From NCBI GenBank assembly GCA_913043815.1, contig CAJWNY010000014.1, positions 1-44,480 on the forward strand: a stretch of 44,480 nucleotides of DNA. Reading direction: 5' to 3'. Shown piece after piece: positions 18,758 to 37,395 of this stretch. A program made the position numbers and the translations under genes. Source of the DNA: an uncultured Gammaproteobacteria bacterium. Lineage in GTDB: Bacteria > Pseudomonadota > Gammaproteobacteria > Pseudomonadales > Azotimanducaceae. The notes beneath the pieces are model-generated. The model ran no database searches. It was given only the letters and a program-made list of their open reading frames with translations, and was not told the DNA's origin. The stretch's first letter is position 1. The number at the start of each line of letters is the position of its first letter.

Positions 18758-18804
18758 CGCGGCTGATGCCGCGCTAGTAACCTAGCTGGCTAAAAGTCAG
18801 CTAG
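18758..18804. terminator. Hairpins between convergent genes
   Basis: Two inverted repeats sit in the 65-nt space between the convergent epoxide hydrolase and dioxygenase genes: CGCGGC-TGAT-GCCGCG (18758-18773) and CTAGCTG-n9-CAGCTAG (18782-18804, overlapping the dioxygenase stop codon). Neither has a U-tract, so this is a possible bidirectional 3'-end structure rather than a textbook terminator. Confidence 0.4.
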
Positions 18805-19640
18805 ATACCTCCCAATGCTTCGCCTTCTATAGTCACACGGTGCATTAAACGACGATGACCGTGGTAGTCGTTGATCGCCCAATGCCAGGTGGCTCTATTA
18901 TCCCAAAAGGCCATTGAGCCTTTGTCCCATTGAAATCGATAACTATGCTCTGGACGCCCGATATGGGCGTACAAATAGTCCAGCAATGGCTTGGACTCTT
19001 GGTCTGTCCAACCTTCAAAGCGCAGTGTAAATGCAGCGTTCACATACAATGTCGGTCGACCTGAAAGGGGATGCTTAACTATCACAGGATGCACTGCGTC
19101 TTGGGTGGCATCGTCTCCATTGCCCAACCTGCCGTTAAGCGCATCTGAATAGCCCGTCGCATTTCCAAAGACATGCCTAGAGGAGTGCACTGCGCTTAAT
19201 GTGGATAAAGTTGCCTTCATACCCTCCGACAAACTCTCATATGCTTTGCTACAGTTAGCGAACAGGGTATCGCCACCAACAGCTGGAACTTCATGGGCCA
19301 GGAGCATAGAGCCAAGCGCTGGGATTTGATCGTATGAATGATCTGTATGCCAGTTACCACCGATATTAAATTCTTGATCTGGTTCTTTGGCCACTTCAGC
19401 AATTTCTGGATGCCCATCAACATGGGCGAAAAATCGATTAACGTTGATTTCGCCCCAGCGTCGCGCAAAGCCTAAATGGGCCTCAGGGCTTAGAAGTTGG
19501 TCGCGAAAAAACAGTACGCCGTGTTCGGCAAATGCAGATTGAAGCGACTGCATTTGGCTCCCATTAACATTGTTCAAGTCAACATTAGCAATCAGTGCAC
19601 CGACAGAACCTGTAGATTTAATTTGCATATTTTGAGTCAT
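18801..19640 (-). CDS. TauD/TfdA-family Fe(II)/2-oxoglutarate dioxygenase
   Basis: A 279-residue jelly-roll dioxygenase. The iron-binding set is H98-x-D100 (NWHTDHSY) and H253 (NRATWHWAI); R264 or R268 in RRLMHRVTI would hold 2-oxoglutarate. Conserved family features include HGVLFFRDQLLSPE (40-53) and GGDTLFANCSKAY. Family members hydroxylate taurine, aryloxyalkanoates, alkyl sulfates and similar molecules, coupling oxidation to decarboxylation of 2-oxoglutarate. The start has GGAAGG upstream. It lies 95 nt downstream of an MFS carrier on the same strand, suggesting uptake and oxidation of one compound. A second paralogous-family member is encoded at 24985. Substrate not predictable. Confidence 0.93.
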   Translation of the reverse strand: MTQNMQIKSTGSVGALIANVDLNNVNGSQMQSLQSAFAEHGVLFFRDQLLSPEAHLGFARRWGEINVNRFFAHVDGHPEIAEVAKEPDQEFNIGGNWHTDHSYDQIPALGSMLLAHEVPAVGGDTLFANCSKAYESLSEGMKATLSTLSAVHSSRHVFGNATGYSDALNGRLGNGDDATQDAVHPVIVKHPLSGRPTLYVNAAFTLRFEGWTDQESKPLLDYLYAHIGRPEHSYRFQWDKGSMAFWDNRATWHWAINDYHGHRRLMHRVTIEGEALGGI

Positions 19641-19735: not shown

Positions 19736-21034
19736 TCAAGCTTTTGCTATTTGCTCGATAGACAGCTTCTTTGGCGGCGGCGCAAAAAATATCAGCACAC
19801 CAGAGAAAATATTCAAACCCGCCACCACCATAAAGGGCAAGCCATAGTCTCCATAGGCATCTCGATAGAGAGCGGAAAACCATGGGGCCATAGCGCCTAA
19901 CGCCAATGAAAACGGCAGAGCAGCACCCCGAATCGAGCCGATAAATCGACGGCCAAAAAAAGACGCCCATATGACCTCTTGCATAGGGATCATTCCACCC
20001 CAACCAACGCCTAACAGAAAGAATGCTGCGTAGACCCAAAACAACTGACCATTCATTGTCGCAAAAACGATACAGGCCAGCGCTACACCTGTTAAAGATG
20101 CAGATAGCGCGGCCAAAGGTTTAGTTGGGCTGCGATCAATGAGGAAACCCCAAATCGGCTTAGACAACATTGCCGGAATAGAGGCAACAACAATAGCGTA
20201 GGCGGCTTCAGTGCGTGTGAAATCGTTATCCGTCAAATAAGGGACAGTCTGCAGTAGCATTACAACGATATTAATAGAAAAAAAGCCAAATGCGATGACC
20301 AAGGCATAAAATGAAAAGGTGCGTAAAGCTTGAGCTCGGGTAAAAGATCGAGCTAATTCATCCTTAGCCCGTTGACCTTGCCCTTGCGCAATTTGCTCCG
20401 CGCTGTGTCCATCTGGATGCAGGCCATAATCTTCTGGCGAGCGGCGCACCAAAAGAGCTACCGGTAAAACAAATACAGCCGTACCCACTCCAAGCCACAA
20501 CCAAGATTCACGCCAACCAATTGTATCAATGAGCCATGTAACTATAGGTGTGAGCACAATTCCGCCAAAGGAAATGCCCATTGCGGCAATGGCTATGGCA
20601 AAACCACGCCGTTCAACAAACCACTTCGACAACGTTACGTTAACCACCAAGTTGCCTAACATTGAGCATCCAGCTGTAACGATAACTCCGTTAAGTATCC
20701 ACCACTGCCACAGTGTCTCTACCCAGCTGTGTAGACAGAGTGCAACGGATAGTAAAACTCCACCTACAAGCATAATAGGCCGGCCACCGTAGCGATCTAC
20801 TCGCACGCCCACAAAAACTCCCACTAATGCCATAACGCACTGACCAATAGAACGGGTCAAGGTGAAATCGGAGCGCGACCAACCCAGTTCATTCAGCATT
20901 GGGTCCATAAAAGATCCCAGTACATAGCTGTACATGCCAATGGCTATGAATTGCGCTATGAACGCAGCGCCGACAATGTAGTAGCCAAAATAAATACCAT
21001 TAGGGGAAAATTCTTGCTGTCGCAATAGATACAT
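19736..21034 (-). CDS. MFS transporter, MCT/OFA-like
   Basis: A 12-helix major facilitator of about 432 residues. The signature after helix 2 reads DRYGGRPIMLVGG, and a related copy FLIDRSPTKPL occurs after helix 8, marking the two halves. The N-terminus IYFGYYIVGAAFIAQFI is typical of monocarboxylate or oxalate/formate-type carriers. The start is uncertain: this ATG gives the usual short cytoplasmic lead-in, whereas ATG 21061 or TTG 21115 would add 9 or 27 residues; none has a strong ribosome site. Upstream of the dioxygenase gene in the same direction, so it may import that enzyme's organic-acid substrate. Confidence 0.88.
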   Translation of the reverse strand: MYLLRQQEFSPNGIYFGYYIVGAAFIAQFIAIGMYSYVLGSFMDPMLNELGWSRSDFTLTRSIGQCVMALVGVFVGVRVDRYGGRPIMLVGGVLLSVALCLHSWVETLWQWWILNGVIVTAGCSMLGNLVVNVTLSKWFVERRGFAIAIAAMGISFGGIVLTPIVTWLIDTIGWRESWLWLGVGTAVFVLPVALLVRRSPEDYGLHPDGHSAEQIAQGQGQRAKDELARSFTRAQALRTFSFYALVIAFGFFSINIVVMLLQTVPYLTDNDFTRTEAAYAIVVASIPAMLSKPIWGFLIDRSPTKPLAALSASLTGVALACIVFATMNGQLFWVYAAFFLLGVGWGGMIPMQEVIWASFFGRRFIGSIRGAALPFSLALGAMAPWFSALYRDAYGDYGLPFMVVAGLNIFSGVLIFFAPPPKKLSIEQIAKA

Positions 21035-21401
21035 ACCTATGCAAATAGGGTCTAGGACCATGGAAGTATTCGGGGCATTTTGCACACCGAAGTATTTGTA
21101 AATAACAAAGAGCAAACAAGCCTGCTATCGCAGGCAATTTTTCTGTATGAAAGCGATGGGGCCTCAATATCGAAAAGTTGCGATCTCGATTACAAACTCT
21201 AATCGAAAACCCGCTACTCATATACTTAGGCCGAAGAGCAAAACAGATGCAGGCAAGTAGCCAGATGCAAAAAATAGTGCAACCTACTCTTTAGCCACTT
21301 TCTACTGCATTTTTTGCTCGGCCCACTGTTAAGTCAACTGCTAGGTGACGCCAAAACATGAGGCTGCTCGATTACGCTGCCCCACCCTTGCCTAGCAAAT
21401 A
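21035..21401. other. Intergenic region between the selenoprotein gene and the MFS gene
   Basis: No gene or clear terminator is seen. The interval follows the UGSC gene and precedes the MFS carrier on the same strand, so it should hold a promoter for the carrier; I could not assign one. Confidence 0.3.
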
Positions 21402-21950
21402 TTAGGTATTAGAACCTTCCATTTGACTTAAAGCGGCTATGACTTTGTCGACAATCGCATCTGTCTTAACGCGCATTTCAGCGTCTGTTGCATCCTGAAT
21501 AGGATGCTGAACAAATACTCGCTCAGCATCAGGCATGCCCAGCGCATTGGCTTGCGCATCTGCCGCTGTGACAAATTCTGAAGATGCAATAGAAACCGCG
21601 GGCGTACCCTGAATCTCAAACCATACCGTGTCATGCAAACTGCACGTGGTACAGGATCCTCAGTCCGCCAAGGCCTCTATGACAAAATCGCTATTTGCCT
21701 GAATTTTTTGCCGCAGCTCTTCTGGCGCCGGCTTAGAAAATGTCGGCTTAACGTAACGGGTGATATTCACATCCGGTAGGCGCTGGCTCAACGTTTCTTC
21801 TAATCGGTCAAGTAAAACATTGCCGCGAGGCTTAGAAATATCTAGCAATGCTACATTGCCTACAATCTGCTTTGGTCTCGGCGTAATTTGCCGTGACACT
21901 GGAACCCGCTCATCGGTAGGGTCCAAGATTGATAACATCGACATATCCAC
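21402..21950 (-). CDS. UGSC-family selenoprotein (TGA read as selenocysteine)
   Basis: One gene of 182 residues that looks like two because of an in-frame TGA at 21660-21662. The first part (96 residues, starting at GTG after GAGGAG; ATG two codons later is possible) ends ...VIEALAD, and reading continues in the same frame without a shift as GSCTTCSLHDTVWFEI... to a normal stop. The context U97-G-S-C100 is the defining motif of the UGSC (seleno)protein family, giving a Sec/Cys redox pair, with another Cys at 103. A SECIS-like hairpin follows the TGA. Both halves read as one domain, so a degenerate pseudogene is unlikely. Function in the family is not established; a thiol or peroxide redox role is inferred. 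The host must carry selABCD elsewhere. Confidence 0.9.
21619..21662 (-). promoter_or_regulatory. Bacterial SECIS-like hairpin with Sec codon
   Basis: On the mRNA, the UGA is followed by 19 nt and then a GUU loop closed by the 6-bp stem CGUGCA/UGCAUG (21641-21646 pairs with 21632-21637, one G-U). Below a small internal loop, CUGUACC pairs with GGUAUGG (two G-U pairs), extending the stem. A G as first loop base and a loop 16-37 nt after the UGA meet the published bacterial SECIS criteria. Confidence 0.75.
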
Positions 21951-22008: not shown

Positions 22009-23589
22009 TCAAATATCTATTTTTCGTGATACCGGAATGGAACCTATGCTGCCGGTAACCCAGCCATGAAAGGCTGCTGAAAACTTGCCCGCTTCACCAC
22101 CGGCAACGACAATGTGTATATCTTCTTCAGACCTAAACTTAGGCATCATCTTTTCTAAATCCTCCTTACTCATGCCAGCCGCGGTAGCCGGCTTAAGGCC
22201 TGCACCTGAGACTGTATCGCCCACCAGTTCACGCGCTGGCCGAGATGAGGTTTCCTGAATACGTTTACGCAAGTCAGCTTTACTGTAGTTATCGCGCATT
22301 AGGGTGTCCACGTGCTCTGGCACCACTACCAACAAGCAGTTGGTGGCAAAGTGTGCTTTTGGATTGTATATTCCTTCTAGCGTTTGACCGATTGTGCCGG
22401 CCAGCGCATTGGCGCTGCGCGACTCTTGATCAACGATCAACGAAGGGCCGCTGGTCATGGTAAACACAGTAACTACAGAGTCTGACGCGTCAAACCCACG
22501 CTCCACGTGCATGGGCTGCCAGGGATTACGCTCTTCCCACTCAGCAAAACACATCGTGAATTTCATTGGATTACCCAGAACCGAACGCTCTGTCTCACCG
22601 GGTTTAGCACCCCCAACATTGCGGATAACAAGGCGTACAGCGCGCCCTATTGTGGCATTAGCGCGGTTACCTTGTCCCAGTGCGCCCATGCCCATATTCA
22701 TGCCTATTTGATGACGAACGGGGCCATTAACCACTATTACCGGGCTGGCACCCATGGTTGTAGCCATAACACCATGCACGTTGTAGTCATCAGTGCTAAT
22801 TGCCTCCACCGCGGCAATAACTACCGGTAGATACTGCGGCTTACACCCAGCCATCACTGCATTGATGGCAATTTTCTCAATGGTCACTTCGCCCAGATTA
22901 GGCGCCATAACGCCGATAATTTCTTGAGCGTCCCGCCTGGTACCCCCGAGCATTCTCAATACACGCTCAGGGGTAGGAGGAATTACCGGCAAACCATCTG
23001 AAAAACCCTGATCGAACATAAACTCGAATTCGTCGTCTTGACTACCAATCGCGATCTTGCGCGCACGAATAGGACTATTTTCGGCCTCGGCACGTAGCCG
23101 ATCAGCGTTACTCGGATCTACCGAAAGAGACCCGCAACCCGGCCGCCACTCCGGCAATTTTTGCCAGTCAAGGTCTACATCTGGAATCTCCAATTCGCCA
23201 CTCAAACGCTGCGCTAAGCCTTGCCATTCATCGCGAACAAAACCTATACAAGTCTCTGTGACCGTGCCAGAAGCATCAGTTTTGTAAAGGGTGGGCACGG
23301 TTTCAATATCCGCAGCAAAAGAAACCTTAAGGGCGCTGTCATCCAAAATAGAAAAGCCTGGAGTGAAGGCATTGTCTAAAGCCTTGTTGCCGTCCAAGGT
23401 TTGACCAATGATTCGTATATCAATTGCACCGGCGAAAGCCTTGTGCATAGCAACTAATACCGGCATAACCTCTTTGCAAGTTGGGCAATCTTCCTTAATA
23501 AAACAGACCAGCGAATCGCTATTGCCGGAGAAAGTAACTTGCTCCCCGCGCAAATTCTCCAATTCAAATGCTGCCATCACTTCTTTCAT
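22009..23589 (-). CDS. Thioredoxin-like domain fused to a large uncharacterised domain
   Basis: A 526-residue cytoplasmic protein, no signal peptide. Residues 1-140 form a thioredoxin-like domain with C35-P-T-C38 after a strand LVCFIKED and a cis-Pro candidate in ETVPTLYK. Residues 150-526 form a second domain I cannot assign; it begins with a WRPGCGS element (Cys near 155) and contains GFSDGLPVIPPTPERVLRML, AVMAGCKPQYLPVVIAAVEA, repeated Gly/Met/Asn-rich segments (IGMNMGMGALGQGN) and a VVAGGEAGKFSAAFHGW C-terminus. GGAGG 5 nt upstream supports the start. It precedes the UGSC selenoprotein gene by 58 nt on the same strand, so the CPTC domain is a natural candidate to reduce the Sec/Cys pair; this partnership is inferred. 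Confidence 0.85.
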   Translation of the reverse strand: MKEVMAAFELENLRGEQVTFSGNSDSLVCFIKEDCPTCKEVMPVLVAMHKAFAGAIDIRIIGQTLDGNKALDNAFTPGFSILDDSALKVSFAADIETVPTLYKTDASGTVTETCIGFVRDEWQGLAQRLSGELEIPDVDLDWQKLPEWRPGCGSLSVDPSNADRLRAEAENSPIRARKIAIGSQDDEFEFMFDQGFSDGLPVIPPTPERVLRMLGGTRRDAQEIIGVMAPNLGEVTIEKIAINAVMAGCKPQYLPVVIAAVEAISTDDYNVHGVMATTMGASPVIVVNGPVRHQIGMNMGMGALGQGNRANATIGRAVRLVIRNVGGAKPGETERSVLGNPMKFTMCFAEWEERNPWQPMHVERGFDASDSVVTVFTMTSGPSLIVDQESRSANALAGTIGQTLEGIYNPKAHFATNCLLVVVPEHVDTLMRDNYSKADLRKRIQETSSRPARELVGDTVSGAGLKPATAAGMSKEDLEKMMPKFRSEEDIHIVVAGGEAGKFSAAFHGWVTGSIGSIPVSRKIDI

Positions 23590-29181: not shown

Positions 29182-29689
29182 AGCTGATCCACTCCCAGAG
29201 TATTAATGATTCGCACAATATAAATAGTAGCAGCTCGTTCGCATATGACTACCCGAATAAAATCCGGCGAATATGAAATTAAAAAAATAAGTAAAATTAA
29301 TTCACCACCCCAACTTGATGAAACGGGTAGTTTTTACCCAACTGGCCGAGCGGATTAGTGAGCTAAATGTCTAGGATTTAAGCACGACAAAGCGATTTCA
29401 AAACAACGTAAAGTCGGGCATAAGGCTTTTCACAACGGGCCTCTCACCCCTAATTAACTCAAAACGCTGTAAATTAGCTACGTTTTTAATAATCCTTCGT
29501 TTAAATTATTTTTTTAAACCTTACCCCCAATTAATACACTACATATTTCGTCTAACAAGCACCTAACGTTAGGTTTTTTAACATGTAACTTTTCTTCCCA
29601 GCGCCCAAAAATTCACGTAATCCAATTAGTTTGCGTACAGTTTTAGTACGTGTTAATTAATGTTTATCAGAAATCTGGAGGGAAAACTG
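29182..29689. other. Intergenic region between monooxygenase and TonB receptor 1
   Basis: An AT-rich 508-nt gap with divergent promoters. Two symmetrical elements stand out on the receptor side: GTTTAAA-n7-TTTAAAC (29499-29519) and a perfect 14-nt palindrome ACCTAACGTTAGGT (29561-29574) followed by six T. They may be operators or part of an attenuator for the receptor gene. No gene seen. Confidence 0.45.
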
Positions 29690-32635
29690 ATGACACGAAT
29701 AAACCGCCTCATATCCGGGGCTGCATTAACCGCACTACTTGCGCCAAACTTACTGATGGCAGAAGGACGGCAAATTGAAGAGGTCATTGTGACCGCTGAA
29801 CGGCAGGAGGCGTCTATTCAAGACACCTCTATTTCCATCACCGCGTTTACAGGTGAGTTCATTGACGATTTCGGTATTAGGAATCAAGAAGACTTGCAGA
29901 ACTTTGTTCCTGCAACAACTATTCAACCCTACGACGCCACAGTACGTGGTGTTGGTCGTAACTTCCGCGCCTTGGGCGGCGACCCCGGCGTAGCTACTTA
30001 CATGCAAGGTGTTTACTCAGAAGATTTGTTGACGGCTACTGCTGCAACATTCTGGGACGTAGAGCGTATTGAGGTTCTTCGTGGTCCACAGGGCACACTC
30101 TACGGTCGTAACGCTGTTGGTGGCGCGATCAACATTCTTTATAAAGAACCTACTGATGTTTTCGAAGGCGCTGTAAAAGCTATTGTTGGTAACTACGGAA
30201 CTGAAGACTACTATGGTGCGTTTTCGGGTCCTATATCCGATACACTCCTTGGCCGCGTAAACTTTAGCTATCGCGACCGCGACGGAATTATCGAAGAAAT
30301 CGGTGGCCCTAACGGACTCGGCTCTGACGATTCAGATTTGGACGGTCTCGGTACCGAAAACATAGCTGTCCAATTAAAGTGGCTTATTTCAGACAACATT
30401 ACACTAGACGTAAGAACGAGTTGGATGGGTATCAATCGCCCCTTCGGTGGCGCTAACGGTGGCGGACTGGTTGTTTTAAACGAAGATGGTCAACCAAACC
30501 GATCCACTACATTGATTCCTGGATATCGATTCATTGATAGAACGCAGACGGTTGCTACGAAAAATGATTTCTACAATCCAGCTACTCCTGTAGTCAACTT
30601 CACAAACCCAACAACGGGTGCAGTGCAGGAAGCTCAGACAAACCGTCCAGGGCTTGATTATGTTTCATCAGCGGGTTTCCAAAATGCTATGGCATCGCTG
30701 GATGGTTGGAACCAATCATCAGATGCTAGTGTCGCTGCGTACAATGCGTGCGTATTTCCTGATGATATTGATGGTGACAAAATTTGTGCTGCAACCAACG
30801 GCCTAAATCGAGAAGAGTTCGATACCAACAATACTCAAGCAACGTTCACTTGGGATGCGAGTGACGCCCTGACTCTGAAATACATTTATGGATTCAATGA
30901 GCTTCAGTATCACCGTACAACAGACGATGACAACACTGCTAGCATGTACGAAGATCGTCAGTTCTACGTGAACCACGAAGCAAGGTACAGTTCGCATGAG
31001 GTACAGGCGTTCTATGAAATCAATGACACTATGTCAGTAACTTCAGGTGTGTTCTGGTACGACGCTGTTATCGATCAGCGAGGCGACTTTTACTCTGCAG
31101 TGGGTTCCGATCGTTTTCAAGACGCTTATACCCCAGGCGAAGGTAGCATCGGTTTTTTCTTCGGTGGCAATCCAATGGCTACACTATTCAGCGCAAAAAA
31201 TGGCTGTATGGTTGAGGTTCCTGCACCCTCGTGCTCGAGAAATTACTCCGCCGAGAACAGTGCTGAAAACTTGACTCTATTTTCTGCTGGCAGAAACGAT
31301 AACTTATACTTGTCTCAATGGCTGGGTGACGACGGAACAAACAGAGACCTTGATGTAATTCACGGAATACGAACAGTTGGATCGGATTTACTCTACGCGA
31401 CACAAACTGAAAGAACTGCTTTTGCGGCATATACTCAGGGCGTATGGGACTTCGCGGACGACCTAACATTAACAGTCGGCCTCAGATATGCGTGGGATGA
31501 AGTAGATGCGGAAGAGAATTTATTCCGCTACACAGAAAGCAATGGTCTTTTTGCATTCATGGCTGGGGGCGGAAACGGCGACCCAACAGATCCGTCTGCA
31601 AGGCCTGACCGGGTAGGCCAAAGTGATAATGTTTATACCATCAACCTACAGGATGGTAACTTTAAAACTGATGCAGATGGCAATGTAATGAACGATGCTT
31701 ATGGGCAGCCTATTCCGACATCGAGAGTTGTTAATGGCGGCCACCCTATTGCTGTAAGCGTTTATCGCCCTTTCACAAGGAAGGACGAAAAGGTTACTGG
31801 AAGGATTAACCTGGACTGGGATGTAAACGACGAAGTTATGCTGTACTTGTCTGCTACCTCTGGTTATCGATCAGGTGGTTATAACTTAGTATTCTTTAGT
31901 AATAGTGCCGCTTATGATCCTGAAGAATTGATTTCTTATGAACTTGGATACAAGGCACAGTTCCTAGACAACACTCTTCAGCTAAACGGATCGTTCTACC
32001 TTTATGATTACGAAAATATTCATACAGTAGCAACTGAGGTTACAAGCTTGGGCGGCACTTCAACATCTGTTCTTGAGGCACCTGGGGCCGAAGTAATTGG
32101 CATTGAAGCTGAAGTGTTATGGCTTGCAACAGATGCGCTAACCCTAGGCGGCAACTTCAGTTACACGCCTAACGAGTACACAGAAGACCTGAATCTCTTA
32201 GATCCAGCTCGACGTGAAACTCCTGTAGGGCTCTATCCAGATGCTGCCACGAACACCAAGAACATTAACGGCAATCAACTGTTGCAGGTACCTGAGCTTA
32301 AGTACACAGCTTACGGCACTTATGCAATTCCGCTAGATGGTGGAGCGAACGTTGATATATCCGGCGTATACAGCTGGACTGATGATGTTTATTACTCTCC
32401 GTTCGAGAACTCTAGAGAAATGTCGCAGGCATATGACCGATTAGACGTTCGCGCTACTTGGACCAACGCAGAGCAAAATATAATTGTTGCGGCATATGTT
32501 AACAACGTGCTCGACGATGTTGCTGTACTCCAAGTGCTAAGGCATGGCGAAGATGAGCAATTCCGTCAGACTGGTGGTACAACATCGCCTCGCATGTTTG
32601 GCTTGGAACTTACATACAAGTTAGGCGCTTACTAG
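29690..32635 (+). CDS. TonB-dependent outer-membrane receptor (copy 1)
   Basis: A 981-residue outer-membrane receptor. The start is set by GGAGGG 8 nt upstream; an ATG ten codons earlier lacks one. A signal peptide (residues 1-24, ending LLMA) is followed by the TonB-box-like IEEVIVTAERQE, the plug domain (about 40-165, with VERIEVLRGPQGTLYGRNAV) and a 22-strand barrel ending in an aromatic residue (LTYKLGAY). Two cysteine pairs in predicted surface loops (ACVFPDDIDGDKICAA and GCMVEVPAPSCS) may form disulfide lids. The length is large for siderophore receptors and usual for receptors importing hydrophobic or polymeric carbon sources. Closely similar to copy 2 at 34456-37395. Confidence 0.95.
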   Translation: MTRINRLISGAALTALLAPNLLMAEGRQIEEVIVTAERQEASIQDTSISITAFTGEFIDDFGIRNQEDLQNFVPATTIQPYDATVRGVGRNFRALGGDPGVATYMQGVYSEDLLTATAATFWDVERIEVLRGPQGTLYGRNAVGGAINILYKEPTDVFEGAVKAIVGNYGTEDYYGAFSGPISDTLLGRVNFSYRDRDGIIEEIGGPNGLGSDDSDLDGLGTENIAVQLKWLISDNITLDVRTSWMGINRPFGGANGGGLVVLNEDGQPNRSTTLIPGYRFIDRTQTVATKNDFYNPATPVVNFTNPTTGAVQEAQTNRPGLDYVSSAGFQNAMASLDGWNQSSDASVAAYNACVFPDDIDGDKICAATNGLNREEFDTNNTQATFTWDASDALTLKYIYGFNELQYHRTTDDDNTASMYEDRQFYVNHEARYSSHEVQAFYEINDTMSVTSGVFWYDAVIDQRGDFYSAVGSDRFQDAYTPGEGSIGFFFGGNPMATLFSAKNGCMVEVPAPSCSRNYSAENSAENLTLFSAGRNDNLYLSQWLGDDGTNRDLDVIHGIRTVGSDLLYATQTERTAFAAYTQGVWDFADDLTLTVGLRYAWDEVDAEENLFRYTESNGLFAFMAGGGNGDPTDPSARPDRVGQSDNVYTINLQDGNFKTDADGNVMNDAYGQPIPTSRVVNGGHPIAVSVYRPFTRKDEKVTGRINLDWDVNDEVMLYLSATSGYRSGGYNLVFFSNSAAYDPEELISYELGYKAQFLDNTLQLNGSFYLYDYENIHTVATEVTSLGGTSTSVLEAPGAEVIGIEAEVLWLATDALTLGGNFSYTPNEYTEDLNLLDPARRETPVGLYPDAATNTKNINGNQLLQVPELKYTAYGTYAIPLDGGANVDISGVYSWTDDVYYSPFENSREMSQAYDRLDVRATWTNAEQNIIVAAYVNNVLDDVAVLQVLRHGEDEQFRQTGGTTSPRMFGLELTYKLGAY

Positions 32636-34455: not shown

Positions 34456-37395
34456 TTAGTAAGCACCTAACTTATAGGTTAGCTCCATACCAAACATACG
34501 TGGCGCAGTGGTTGTGCCTGTCTGTCGAAAGTGCTCATCCTCGCCATGCCTAAGCACCTGAAGTACCGCAACATCATCAAGAACATTGTTGACGAATGCA
34601 GCAACAACAATGTTTTCCTCTGCATTAGTCCAGGTAGCGCGAACATCTAACCGATCATACGACTCTGCCATTTCATTCTTGTTCTCGAATGGAGAGTAGT
34701 AAACCTCATCGGTAAAGCTATACACACCAGATAGACTTACACTTGCTCCATCAGCTAGTGGAATGGAATAGGTACCATAAGCCGTGTACTTGAGCTCTGG
34801 AACTTGCAGCAGCTGATTGCCGTTAACATTCGTTGTGTTTGCCGCCGCAAGAGGGTAAAGACCAGTAGGAGTATCACGTCGTGCTGGATCAAGGATGTTC
34901 AGATCTTCAGTGTACTCGTTAGGTGTGTAACTGAAGTTACCCCCTAAAGTTAACGCATCGGTCGCCAACCATAATACTTCTGCTTCGATCCCCATTACTT
35001 CTGCACCCGGTGCAGGAAGAACAGAAGTTGAAGTGCCACCCAAGCTGGTTACCTCAGTAGCCACCGTATGAATATTTTCATAGTCATAAACGTAGAACGA
35101 ACCATTGACCTGTAAAGTGTTGTCCAAAAACTGTGTTTTATAACCAATTTCATAGGAAAGAAGCTCTTCGGGGTCATAAGCTGCAGTATTGCTAAAGAAA
35201 ACTAAGTTGTAACCTCCAGATCTATATCCGGATGTAACAGAGAAATACCACATCATTTCATCAGTAACATCCCAATCAAGGTTGATTCTACCTGTCACTT
35301 TTTCATCTTTTCGGGTGAACGGACGATAAACACTAACGGCTATTGGATGACCGCCATTGACTACTCGATCGGTAGCGATTGGTTGTCCATAAGCATCGTT
35401 CACTACGTTGCCATCTGCGTCTGTCTGGAAATTCCCATCCTGCAGATTTATCGTATATACATTATCGCTTTGAAGGATTCGATTAGGCGCTACTCCCGGC
35501 ACATTGTTGTTACCGCCGCCAGCCATAAATGCAAAAAGGCCATCACTTTCTGTGTAACGCCATAGATTCTCTTCAGCGTCCACTTCGTCAAACGCATACC
35601 GAACACCAATTGTCAGAGTTAAGTCTTCTGCAAAGTCCCACACGCCTTGTGTGTAAGCAGCGAACGCTTTCCGTTCTGTCTGAGTAGCATATAGCAGGTC
35701 AGAGCCAACAGTGCGTGGACCATGAATCACGTCAAGATTTGGATCCGTGCCGTCATCTCCACCCCATTGTGAGAGGTATAAATTATCGTTTCTAGAACTG
35801 TCTAGGATACTCAAATTCTCAAAGCTGTTTTCAGAGGCATAGTTCGGCGAGCAGGTTGGGGCAGGATTTGCGACCATACAGCCATTCTTCGCACTGAATA
35901 ATGTAGCCATTGGAGCTCCACCAAAGAAGAAACCTATGCTGCCTGCGCCAGGTGTATAAGCTTCTTGAAAACGATCAGAGCCTACTGCAGAGTAATAATC
36001 TCCACGCTGATCGATAGTAGCGTCGTACCAAAAGACGCCGGATGTCACCGACATGGTATCGTTGATTTCGTAGAAAGCTTGTACTTCGTGCGAGCTATAA
36101 CGAGCTTCGTGATTCACATAGAACTGACGATCTTGATATACACTGGCTGTATTGTCATCGTCTGTTGTGCGGTGATAAGAAATCTCATTGAAGCCATAAA
36201 TATATTTCAGAGTCAGAGCGTCACTCGCATCCCAAGTTAACGTCGCTTGAGTATTACTAGTGTCGTACTCCTCTCTATTTAACCCGTTAGTGGCAGCGCA
36301 AACATCTTTGCCTTTCATATCTCCGGGGAAAACGCACGCGTTGTAAGCGGCCAAGCTTTCGTCTGATGTTGTGTTCCAACCATCCAGTGATGCCATAGCA
36401 TTTTGAAAGCCAGCAGCGCCAACATAATCGAGGCCGGGGCGGTTTGTCTGCGCTTCTTGCACAGCACCCGTTTCCGGATTAGTAAAACTGTAAACAGGTG
36501 TGCCTGGGTTGTAGAAGTCATTCTTTGTAGCAACAGTCTGAGTTCTATCAATGAATCGATAACCAGGAACCAACGCAGTCGAACGGTTTGGTTGGCCGTC
36601 CTCGTTCAAAACGACTAAACCACCACCGTTAGCGCCACCGAATGGTCTATCTATTCCCATCCAAGCGTGTCGTACATCAACTGTAACGTCATCCGAAACC
36701 AACCATTTCAATTGCACGGCTATGTTCTGCGTACCTAGACCATCCAGATCTGAATCATCCGATCCAAGACCATTAGAGCCACCGATTTCGTCGATTATGC
36801 CGTCACGATCGCGATAGCTAAAGTTTACGCGGCCCAACAATTTATCGGTCAGAGGGCCAGAAAAAGCACCATAATAATCTTCGGTTCCATAGTTACCGAC
36901 GATTGCCTTAACAGCGCCTTCAAAAACATCAGTAGGTTCTTTGTAAAGAATGTTGATCGCACCGCCAACAGCGTTTCGGCCATAGAGGGTGCCCTGTGGT
37001 CCACGAAGAACCTCAATACGCTCTACGTCCCAGAAAGTCGCTGCAGTTGCAGTCAATAGGTCTTCTGAGTAGACACCATTCATGTAAGTTGCTACACCGG
37101 GATCTCCGCCCAAAGCACGGAAGTTACGACCAACGCCACGCACTGTTGCGTCGTAAGGCTGAATGGTTGTAGCAGGAACAAAGTTTTGTAAATCTTCTTG
37201 ATTTCGAATGCCGAAATCGTCCATGAATTCGCCGGTAAATGCGGTGATAGAAATAGAAGTATCCTGAATGGACGCTTCTTGGCGTTCAGCGGTCACAATG
37301 ACCTCTTCTATTTGCCTTCCTTCTGCCATCAATAAGTTTGGCGCAAGCAGCGCAGTTAATGAAGCCCCGATAATAAGGCTTTTTTTACTTTTCAT
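34456..37395 (-). CDS. TonB-dependent outer-membrane receptor (copy 2)
   Basis: A 979-residue paralogue of receptor copy 1 in opposite orientation. It has the same signal-peptide end (ALLAPNLLMA), TonB box (IEEVIVTAERQE), plug and barrel, and the same C-terminus LTYKLGAY. The first 170 residues of the mature proteins differ at very few positions, whereas surface-loop stretches differ more (for example GNGDPTDPSARPDR against GNNNVPGVAPNR). DNA differences in the plug are mostly at third codon positions, so the pair is not recent and both copies are under selection. GGAGGG precedes the ATG. Both surface-loop Cys pairs are kept. The two probably take up related substrates with altered specificity. 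Confidence 0.95.
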   Translation of the reverse strand: MKSKKSLIIGASLTALLAPNLLMAEGRQIEEVIVTAERQEASIQDTSISITAFTGEFMDDFGIRNQEDLQNFVPATTIQPYDATVRGVGRNFRALGGDPGVATYMNGVYSEDLLTATAATFWDVERIEVLRGPQGTLYGRNAVGGAINILYKEPTDVFEGAVKAIVGNYGTEDYYGAFSGPLTDKLLGRVNFSYRDRDGIIDEIGGSNGLGSDDSDLDGLGTQNIAVQLKWLVSDDVTVDVRHAWMGIDRPFGGANGGGLVVLNEDGQPNRSTALVPGYRFIDRTQTVATKNDFYNPGTPVYSFTNPETGAVQEAQTNRPGLDYVGAAGFQNAMASLDGWNTTSDESLAAYNACVFPGDMKGKDVCAATNGLNREEYDTSNTQATLTWDASDALTLKYIYGFNEISYHRTTDDDNTASVYQDRQFYVNHEARYSSHEVQAFYEINDTMSVTSGVFWYDATIDQRGDYYSAVGSDRFQEAYTPGAGSIGFFFGGAPMATLFSAKNGCMVANPAPTCSPNYASENSFENLSILDSSRNDNLYLSQWGGDDGTDPNLDVIHGPRTVGSDLLYATQTERKAFAAYTQGVWDFAEDLTLTIGVRYAFDEVDAEENLWRYTESDGLFAFMAGGGNNNVPGVAPNRILQSDNVYTINLQDGNFQTDADGNVVNDAYGQPIATDRVVNGGHPIAVSVYRPFTRKDEKVTGRINLDWDVTDEMMWYFSVTSGYRSGGYNLVFFSNTAAYDPEELLSYEIGYKTQFLDNTLQVNGSFYVYDYENIHTVATEVTSLGGTSTSVLPAPGAEVMGIEAEVLWLATDALTLGGNFSYTPNEYTEDLNILDPARRDTPTGLYPLAAANTTNVNGNQLLQVPELKYTAYGTYSIPLADGASVSLSGVYSFTDEVYYSPFENKNEMAESYDRLDVRATWTNAEENIVVAAFVNNVLDDVAVLQVLRHGEDEHFRQTGTTTAPRMFGMELTYKLGAY

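Follow-up and report, generated by a model that had tools for sequence, protein, structure and literature searches.

A predicted UGSC-family selenoprotein gene and its undescribed thioredoxin-bearing partner in an uncultured gammaproteobacterium

The window analyzed here is a 44,480-nucleotide stretch (contig C14; GenBank CAJWNY010000014.1) from an uncultured Gammaproteobacteria bacterium. The features on which the analysis draws are the following.

18801..19640, minus strand: TauD/TfdA-type dioxygenase gene, downstream of the MFS gene
19736..21115, minus strand: MFS transporter gene, downstream of the UGSC gene
21402..21950, minus strand: UGSC selenoprotein gene, GTG start at 21950, stop at 21404-21402, 182 residues
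21632..21646, minus strand: predicted bacterial SECIS core hairpin, positions 17-31 counted from the T of the TGA, apical loop G23-U24 at 21640-21639
21660..21662, minus strand: TGA codon predicted to be read as selenocysteine (Sec), motif U-G-S-C-T-T-C
22009..23589, minus strand: partner gene, 526 aa, directly upstream of the UGSC gene on the same strand, 58-bp gap
22012..23052, minus strand: partner domain proper, ~345 aa, no Pfam model and no PDB sequence match
23185..23589, minus strand: partner N-terminal thioredoxin-fold (ResA/StoA-like) domain, CPTC at residues 35-38
29660-32635, plus strand, and 34456-37395, minus strand: two large TonB-dependent receptors

Conventional calling (table 11) gives two short ORFs at the UGSC locus, 21660-21950 (96 aa) and 21402-21638 (78 aa). 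The first-pass annotation had proposed that the TGA at 21660-21662, read as Sec, joins them in a frame open on both sides. Translation with TGA as Sec indeed yielded an open frame of 182 residues that starts at GTG 21950 and stops at 21402 (...VIEALAD-U-GSCTTCSLHD...), with a single internal TGA at 21662-21660. Counted from the GTG, Sec is residue 97; the construct used for alignment and modelling begins one codon later, so that Sec is residue 96 there. The two statements on ribosome sites also held: AAGAGGAG ends 4 bases 5′ of GTG 21950, and ahead of the TTG of the second half there is only a GAGG, at about 19 bases. The joined protein scored 160 bits against Pfam PF24696 UGSC (cut-off 25) and 165 bits against NCBIfam NF041046 UGSC_fam (cut-off 125), both alignments spanned the TGA, and ADUGSCTTCS carries the U/C-G-S-C motif of the family; the proposed family identity is thus upheld. 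At the sequence level, these findings confirm that the two short frames are one gene in which UGA is predicted to encode selenocysteine and whose product is a predicted selenoprotein of a known family. The minus-strand orientation, the partner gene, a second UGSC copy and cassettes with sel genes go beyond what had been annotated earlier.

The assembly (2.85 Mb, 90% complete) was searched for the Sec machinery, as the first-pass annotation had suggested, and selA, selB, selC and selD were all present. selA scored 516 bits and selB 360 bits; selB shares a contig with tRNA-Sec (72.7 bits; ARAGORN concurs, anticodon TCA). selD (257 bits; contig C15:40176-41084, L018) lies within a 739-aa open frame, similar in length to the NADH-dehydrogenase-like SelD fusion of locus L053 (721 aa). 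The second UGSC gene (contig C47, L024:7958-8494) also has TGA at the Sec site; a further TGA lies shortly past the end of its Pfam match, within the start of an overlapping partner gene. That partner (L024:8472-9566) is downstream and has no thioredoxin domain. The genome also contains two PF07355 (GrdB/PrdB-family) genes, on contigs C7 (L108) and C69 (L109), each with a TGA that lies in frame within a V-U-P-x-C motif; a standard gene caller would break these genes apart as well. PF07355 genes occurred in 16 of the 20 UGSC genomes tested.

To collect relatives, an alignment of the partner domain was run against a public set of genomes; at least 583 candidates were confirmed, and the best 80 loci were kept. 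UGSC was present in 76 of these, 75 with TGA at the Sec codon and one (L102) cut off before it. Of the four others, L107 breaks off 215 bases past the partner; L075, L076 and L088 contain the partner, and no UGSC gene was found in them. With the window and loci L022-L024 added, all 79 main-set sequences that reach the homologous codon have TGA. The main set consists of near relatives by choice, so the absence of Cys forms there is no estimate for the family; the accessible text of the GOS paper of 2008 (PMC2398784) gives 255 Sec versus 21 Cys forms. Among 398 sampled Pseudomonadota genomes, our own included, UGSC occurred in five: G000 and G420 have two Sec copies each, G590 has one, the gene of G424 (L146) is a Cys form, and that of G557 (L145) is disrupted and reads CGSC. 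Of the five further sequences from this phylum sample, three have TGA and two Cys (L146 and the disrupted L145). A real stop or a missing residue in close relatives, named earlier as evidence against Sec, was not the case: over all UGSC sequences examined, window included, the codon is TGA in 82/84 and Cys in 2/84. A class sample gave UGSC in 3 of 274 genomes (own included), with TGA in every copy.

selA scored above the cut-off in 22 of the 24 Sec-type UGSC genomes other than our own; the exceptions are G283, whose selA is a fragment at the end of a contig, and G135, which shows no complete selA. It did so in 0 of the 2 Cys-type UGSC genomes, and in 2 of 8 genomes without a UGSC match in the class sample. 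The CGSC gene of L145 is split across two frames and contains an internal TGA, and its genome shows no complete selA; the partner frame beside it is uninterrupted, and the UGSC gene looks like a decaying copy. For L072 (Sulfopaludibacter) and L083 (Bifidobacterium breve), the names of the MAGs are at odds with the tree neighbours, possibly through binning or naming errors. In Geodermatophilaceae, UGSC-motif selenoproteins have been reported, with a tRNA-Sec anticodon of CUA, according to the accessible part of that literature.

Just 3′ of the UGA, six pairs (positions 17-31) close a GUN loop in a predicted SECIS hairpin. G23-U24 was kept in 55 of 58 distinct stretches, and the control, E. coli fdhF, has G23-U24-N-UGCA at an equal distance from its UGA. 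The codons beneath the hairpin are constrained beyond the amino acids they encode. Ser103 is AGT in all 52 distinct rows with Ser at both sites, whereas Ser98 is written with six different codons in these rows (AGT in 5/52). Likewise, Cys102 is TGC in all 55 rows with Cys at both sites, whereas Cys99 is TGC in 33/55, both codons being used. This within-gene codon contrast is plain; its P-values (5e-24 for Ser, 3e-8 for Cys) are too small because related rows were counted as independent. In four loci residue 103 is Cys, written TGT in every case, so that G23-U24 is preserved. Stem covariation was slight (one pair, 3/43 rows) because the stem hardly varies, and the folding energy was ordinary (z -0.75). 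These two signals are themselves weak; the hairpin with a GU apical loop just downstream is present. L022 and L024 have a predicted hairpin with a five-base loop, the GU lying two bases further on.

The decoding signals are well supported, and computation strongly supports the prediction that selA, selB, tRNA-Sec and selD of the cell insert Sec at UGA 21662-21660 via the SECIS hairpin. That UGA is instead a true stop, leaving two short proteins or a decayed gene, agrees with the end of the frame under table 11; however, the protein is conserved on both sides, at this codon 82 of 84 sequences carry TGA and the other two Cys, synonymous constraint follows the UGA, and the full Sec machinery is present. 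We regard a true stop as scarcely credible. A changed genetic code, with UGA read as another amino acid such as Trp, would likewise leave the frame open. It is just as improbable, given that L146 has Cys at the site, that sel genes are present, and that in the second copy the UGSC-site TGA is read through, whereas a different TGA follows soon after the end of the Pfam match.

The N-terminal 135 residues of the partner are thioredoxin-like by sequence (E 7.7e-6 to StoA, with ResA next) and by fold (best match E 7.2e-8). When the full model was compared using Foldseek, the best 50 of 1212 matches were all to thioredoxin-fold chains. That the partner in the window bears a thioredoxin-fold domain with CxxC is strongly supported by computation. 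In the rest of the protein, a Pfam search of four members with E values allowed up to 10 found no match in three of them and a chance-level match of 20 residues (E 0.44) in L023; a search of the partner domain against PDB by sequence, also at E up to 10, gave no match. In alignment A3, 47 rows have the thioredoxin domain and 3 do not. Cys35 and the linker Cys152 (RPGCG) are present in 47/47 and Cys38 in 45/47 of the former; Cys249 is present in 48/50 and Cys347 in 45/50 rows.

Partners without a thioredoxin domain are found in L022 and L024 and as second copies in L077, L090, L096, L101 and L106. The last five loci, all from Chloroflexota, each combine a single UGSC gene with two partner genes. 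The Chloroflexota partners L056, L070, L071 and L073 have CxxT instead of CxxC in the thioredoxin-like domain. Neither the thioredoxin domain nor the CxxC is therefore obligatory. In L022 (genome G091), as in L024, the partner is downstream of UGSC. In L023 (G135), UGSC (as U-S-S-C) and the partner share one frame on a 3.1-kb contig. Genome G135 is the one without a complete selA; perhaps the contig is misplaced or the gene is missing.

When the 398 Pseudomonadota genomes were searched with a partner profile, exactly the five UGSC genomes matched, and the partner was adjacent to UGSC in each. For the UGSC and partner searches, the 25 listed genomes are identical and the other 373 are taken as the same from a like-worded draw. 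This co-occurrence test is independent of the search that yielded the 80 loci. UGSC and partner occur together; the pairing is well supported, strongly so by computation. The open part of the UGSC literature, outside which lie most subscription papers and bioRxiv preprints, describes no function, neighbouring partner gene or UGSC-sel cassette in the text available. A 2026 review (PMC13188914), in its accessible part, counts UGSC with the bioinformatically identified selenoproteins that are still largely uncharacterized in function, in agreement with the first-pass statement that the family has no established function. The UGSC family is known; the partner, whose main domain lacks a Pfam model, is undescribed.

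In 22 of the 80 loci, tRNA-Sec lies within the fetched stretch. tblastn detected selA and selB in all 22 and in 0 of the 58 others, which may end before such genes; selD was found in 7. The order selA-selB-tRNA-Sec-partner-UGSC on one strand was seen in 13 of the 22; the other cassettes have selA, or all of the sel genes as a block, inverted or placed downstream. In a midpoint-rooted tree of 76 rows, 21 of the 22 cassette loci group in a single clade with support 100/100; by their titles almost all are alphaproteobacterial, and the clade is nested within gammaproteobacterial sequences. L103 stands apart from this clade, so the tree needs two changes. Together with the UGSC pair, selA, selB and tRNA-Sec possibly form a portable selenocysteine module, for example in L048, L053, L069 and L103. 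The cassettes suggest that some bacteria may retain the Sec machinery in part to keep the UGSC pair.

The AlphaFold2 model of UGSC (pLDDT 91.9, pTM 0.86) has five strands alternating with helices, a fold that we label flavodoxin-like; Sec96 lies just before the helix following strand 3. Near the top of the Foldseek ranking were an AzoR-like protein, MsuE, AzoR and flavorubredoxin (E 2e-5 to 2e-4, TM mostly 0.35-0.5), and no thioredoxin was among the best 50 of 1794 matches. A search of PDB by sequence with UGSC returned FtsY alone (E about 1), and one with a PrdB-like protein returned nothing. This model supports, but does not prove, that UGSC is a flavodoxin-like α/β domain with its Sec in the position given above. 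The model argues against a Trx-like fold, which the GOS authors thought likely in 2008 (PMC2398784, accessible text); a thioredoxin fold for UGSC was rejected on this predicted structure and its best 50 matches.

A profile of 33 PF07355-type sequences was aligned to UGSC using HHalign with a probability of 70% (P 3.9e-5, score 39.1), with the two Sec columns superposed and HPIQ opposite FPLG. By comparison, 22 other neighbour clusters scored at most 22.6 against UGSC, a rough contrast because these clusters contain some antisense shadow frames and no flavodoxin-like family. Two proteins of locus L113 are taken here as GrdE-like and GrdB-like. As a positive control, the PF07355-type profile found the GrdB-like L113 protein at 98%; UGSC matched this single sequence weakly (P 0.0066, 28 columns). 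When 48 UGSC members were scanned with Pfam at E values up to 10, none matched PF07355. A remote relationship of UGSC to the Sec-bearing domain of the GrdB/PrdB family is plausible but not proven; against it stands the fact that the link rests on one moderate profile match. GrdE/PrdA is the pyruvoyl-forming partner of GrdB/PrdB. No homology was seen between the UGSC partner and the two L113 proteins, compared as single sequences (P 0.5 and 0.2 for the GrdE-like and GrdB-like protein, respectively).

Beyond the TauD/TfdA gene in the window lie epoxide hydrolase and SDR genes on the opposite strand, and all four clusters (MFS, TauD/TfdA, epoxide hydrolase and SDR) are also represented in L028, the nearest relative (78% identity). 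A related MFS gene was found in 5 of the 80 fetched loci. Over 81 regions, window included, the neighbour clusters, one representative of each being scanned, were SDR (16), acyl-CoA dehydrogenase (15), TauD (9), class III CoA-transferase (7), MFS (6) and epoxide hydrolase (6). These clusters are too general for a substrate to be named from context. The MFS and TauD/TfdA genes suggest that the UGSC step may belong to the breakdown of an imported small organic acid.

We consider it probable that UGSC is a Sec-dependent reductase that receives electrons from its thioredoxin-fused partner. UGSC would be the selenocysteine catalytic subunit, and the adjacent gene would encode its dedicated partner. 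By analogy with the attack proposed for the Sec of GrdB/PrdB, the Sec of U-GSC-TTC would attack an electrophilic substrate, Cys99 or Cys102 would resolve the intermediate as a selenenylsulfide, and the CPTC of the partner, perhaps via the conserved linker Cys152, would restore the selenolate. The second domain of the partner would hold the substrate. Glycine and proline reductase, in part as described in PMC13188914, served as the model for this chemistry. We put at roughly 35% the fuller reading that UGSC and its partner are an undescribed Sec enzyme, in which a stand-alone GrdB/PrdB-type selenol domain and a new substrate-binding protein, often with its own thioredoxin, reductively cleave a small organic molecule and are of enough value to travel with selA-selB-tRNA-Sec as a portable selenium module.

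Two other functions would also accommodate a selenoprotein at this locus. UGSC may be a general thiol-disulfide or peroxide oxidoreductase, the partner being just its reductase; the UxxC motif, the thioredoxin-fold partner domain and the Trx-like fold thought likely in the accessible text of PMC2398784 fit this. We judge it unlikely, in view of the confident five-stranded α/β model with no thioredoxin among its best 50 of 1794 matches, and of the large second partner domain and the co-occurrence with UGSC, which suggest a specific substrate. UGSC and partner might instead bind a flavin or metal and act as an electron carrier or sensor rather than as a substrate reductase. Several of the best structural matches are, partly to judge by their titles, FMN-binding proteins, and Lys39 after strand 1 is conserved in 80/83 sequences; however, Sec in a UxxCxxC motif would point to chemistry at selenium, and a carrier or sensor role seems quite improbable to us. 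For the Sec enzyme reading, the fixed thioredoxin-bearing partner, the supported fold model and thioredoxin domain, and the possible link to glycine and proline reductase together provide a testable enzyme hypothesis for UGSC.

Compared with the UGSC family as defined by PF24696 and NF041046 ("UGSC family (seleno)protein"), the protein of the window has the same whole-protein match, U-G-S-C motif and in-frame TGA, and in itself shows nothing distinguishing. In the GOS UGSC/Unknown_1 fusion (PMC2398784), UGSC is fused to a conserved domain of unknown function, likewise in L023, the two being compared by description; the UGSC passages of that paper, as far as accessible, mention no separate thioredoxin-fused neighbour, unlike the window. 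The sel cassettes resemble the selA-selB-selC genes beside fdhA, proposed as a unit of transfer in Genome Biol. 2006 (PMC1794560, accessible part). A selenoprotein gene beside selA-selB-selC is common to both arrangements; however, the place of fdhA is taken by UGSC and its partner in 22 of the 80 loci. With GrdB/PrdB (PF07355) of glycine and D-proline reductase, UGSC has UxxC in common, and the accessible part of PMC13188914 gives UxxCxxC for GrdB. The profile match is moderate, with Sec aligned, yet Pfam scans give UGSC no PF07355 match; and the partner of UGSC carries a fused thioredoxin domain instead.
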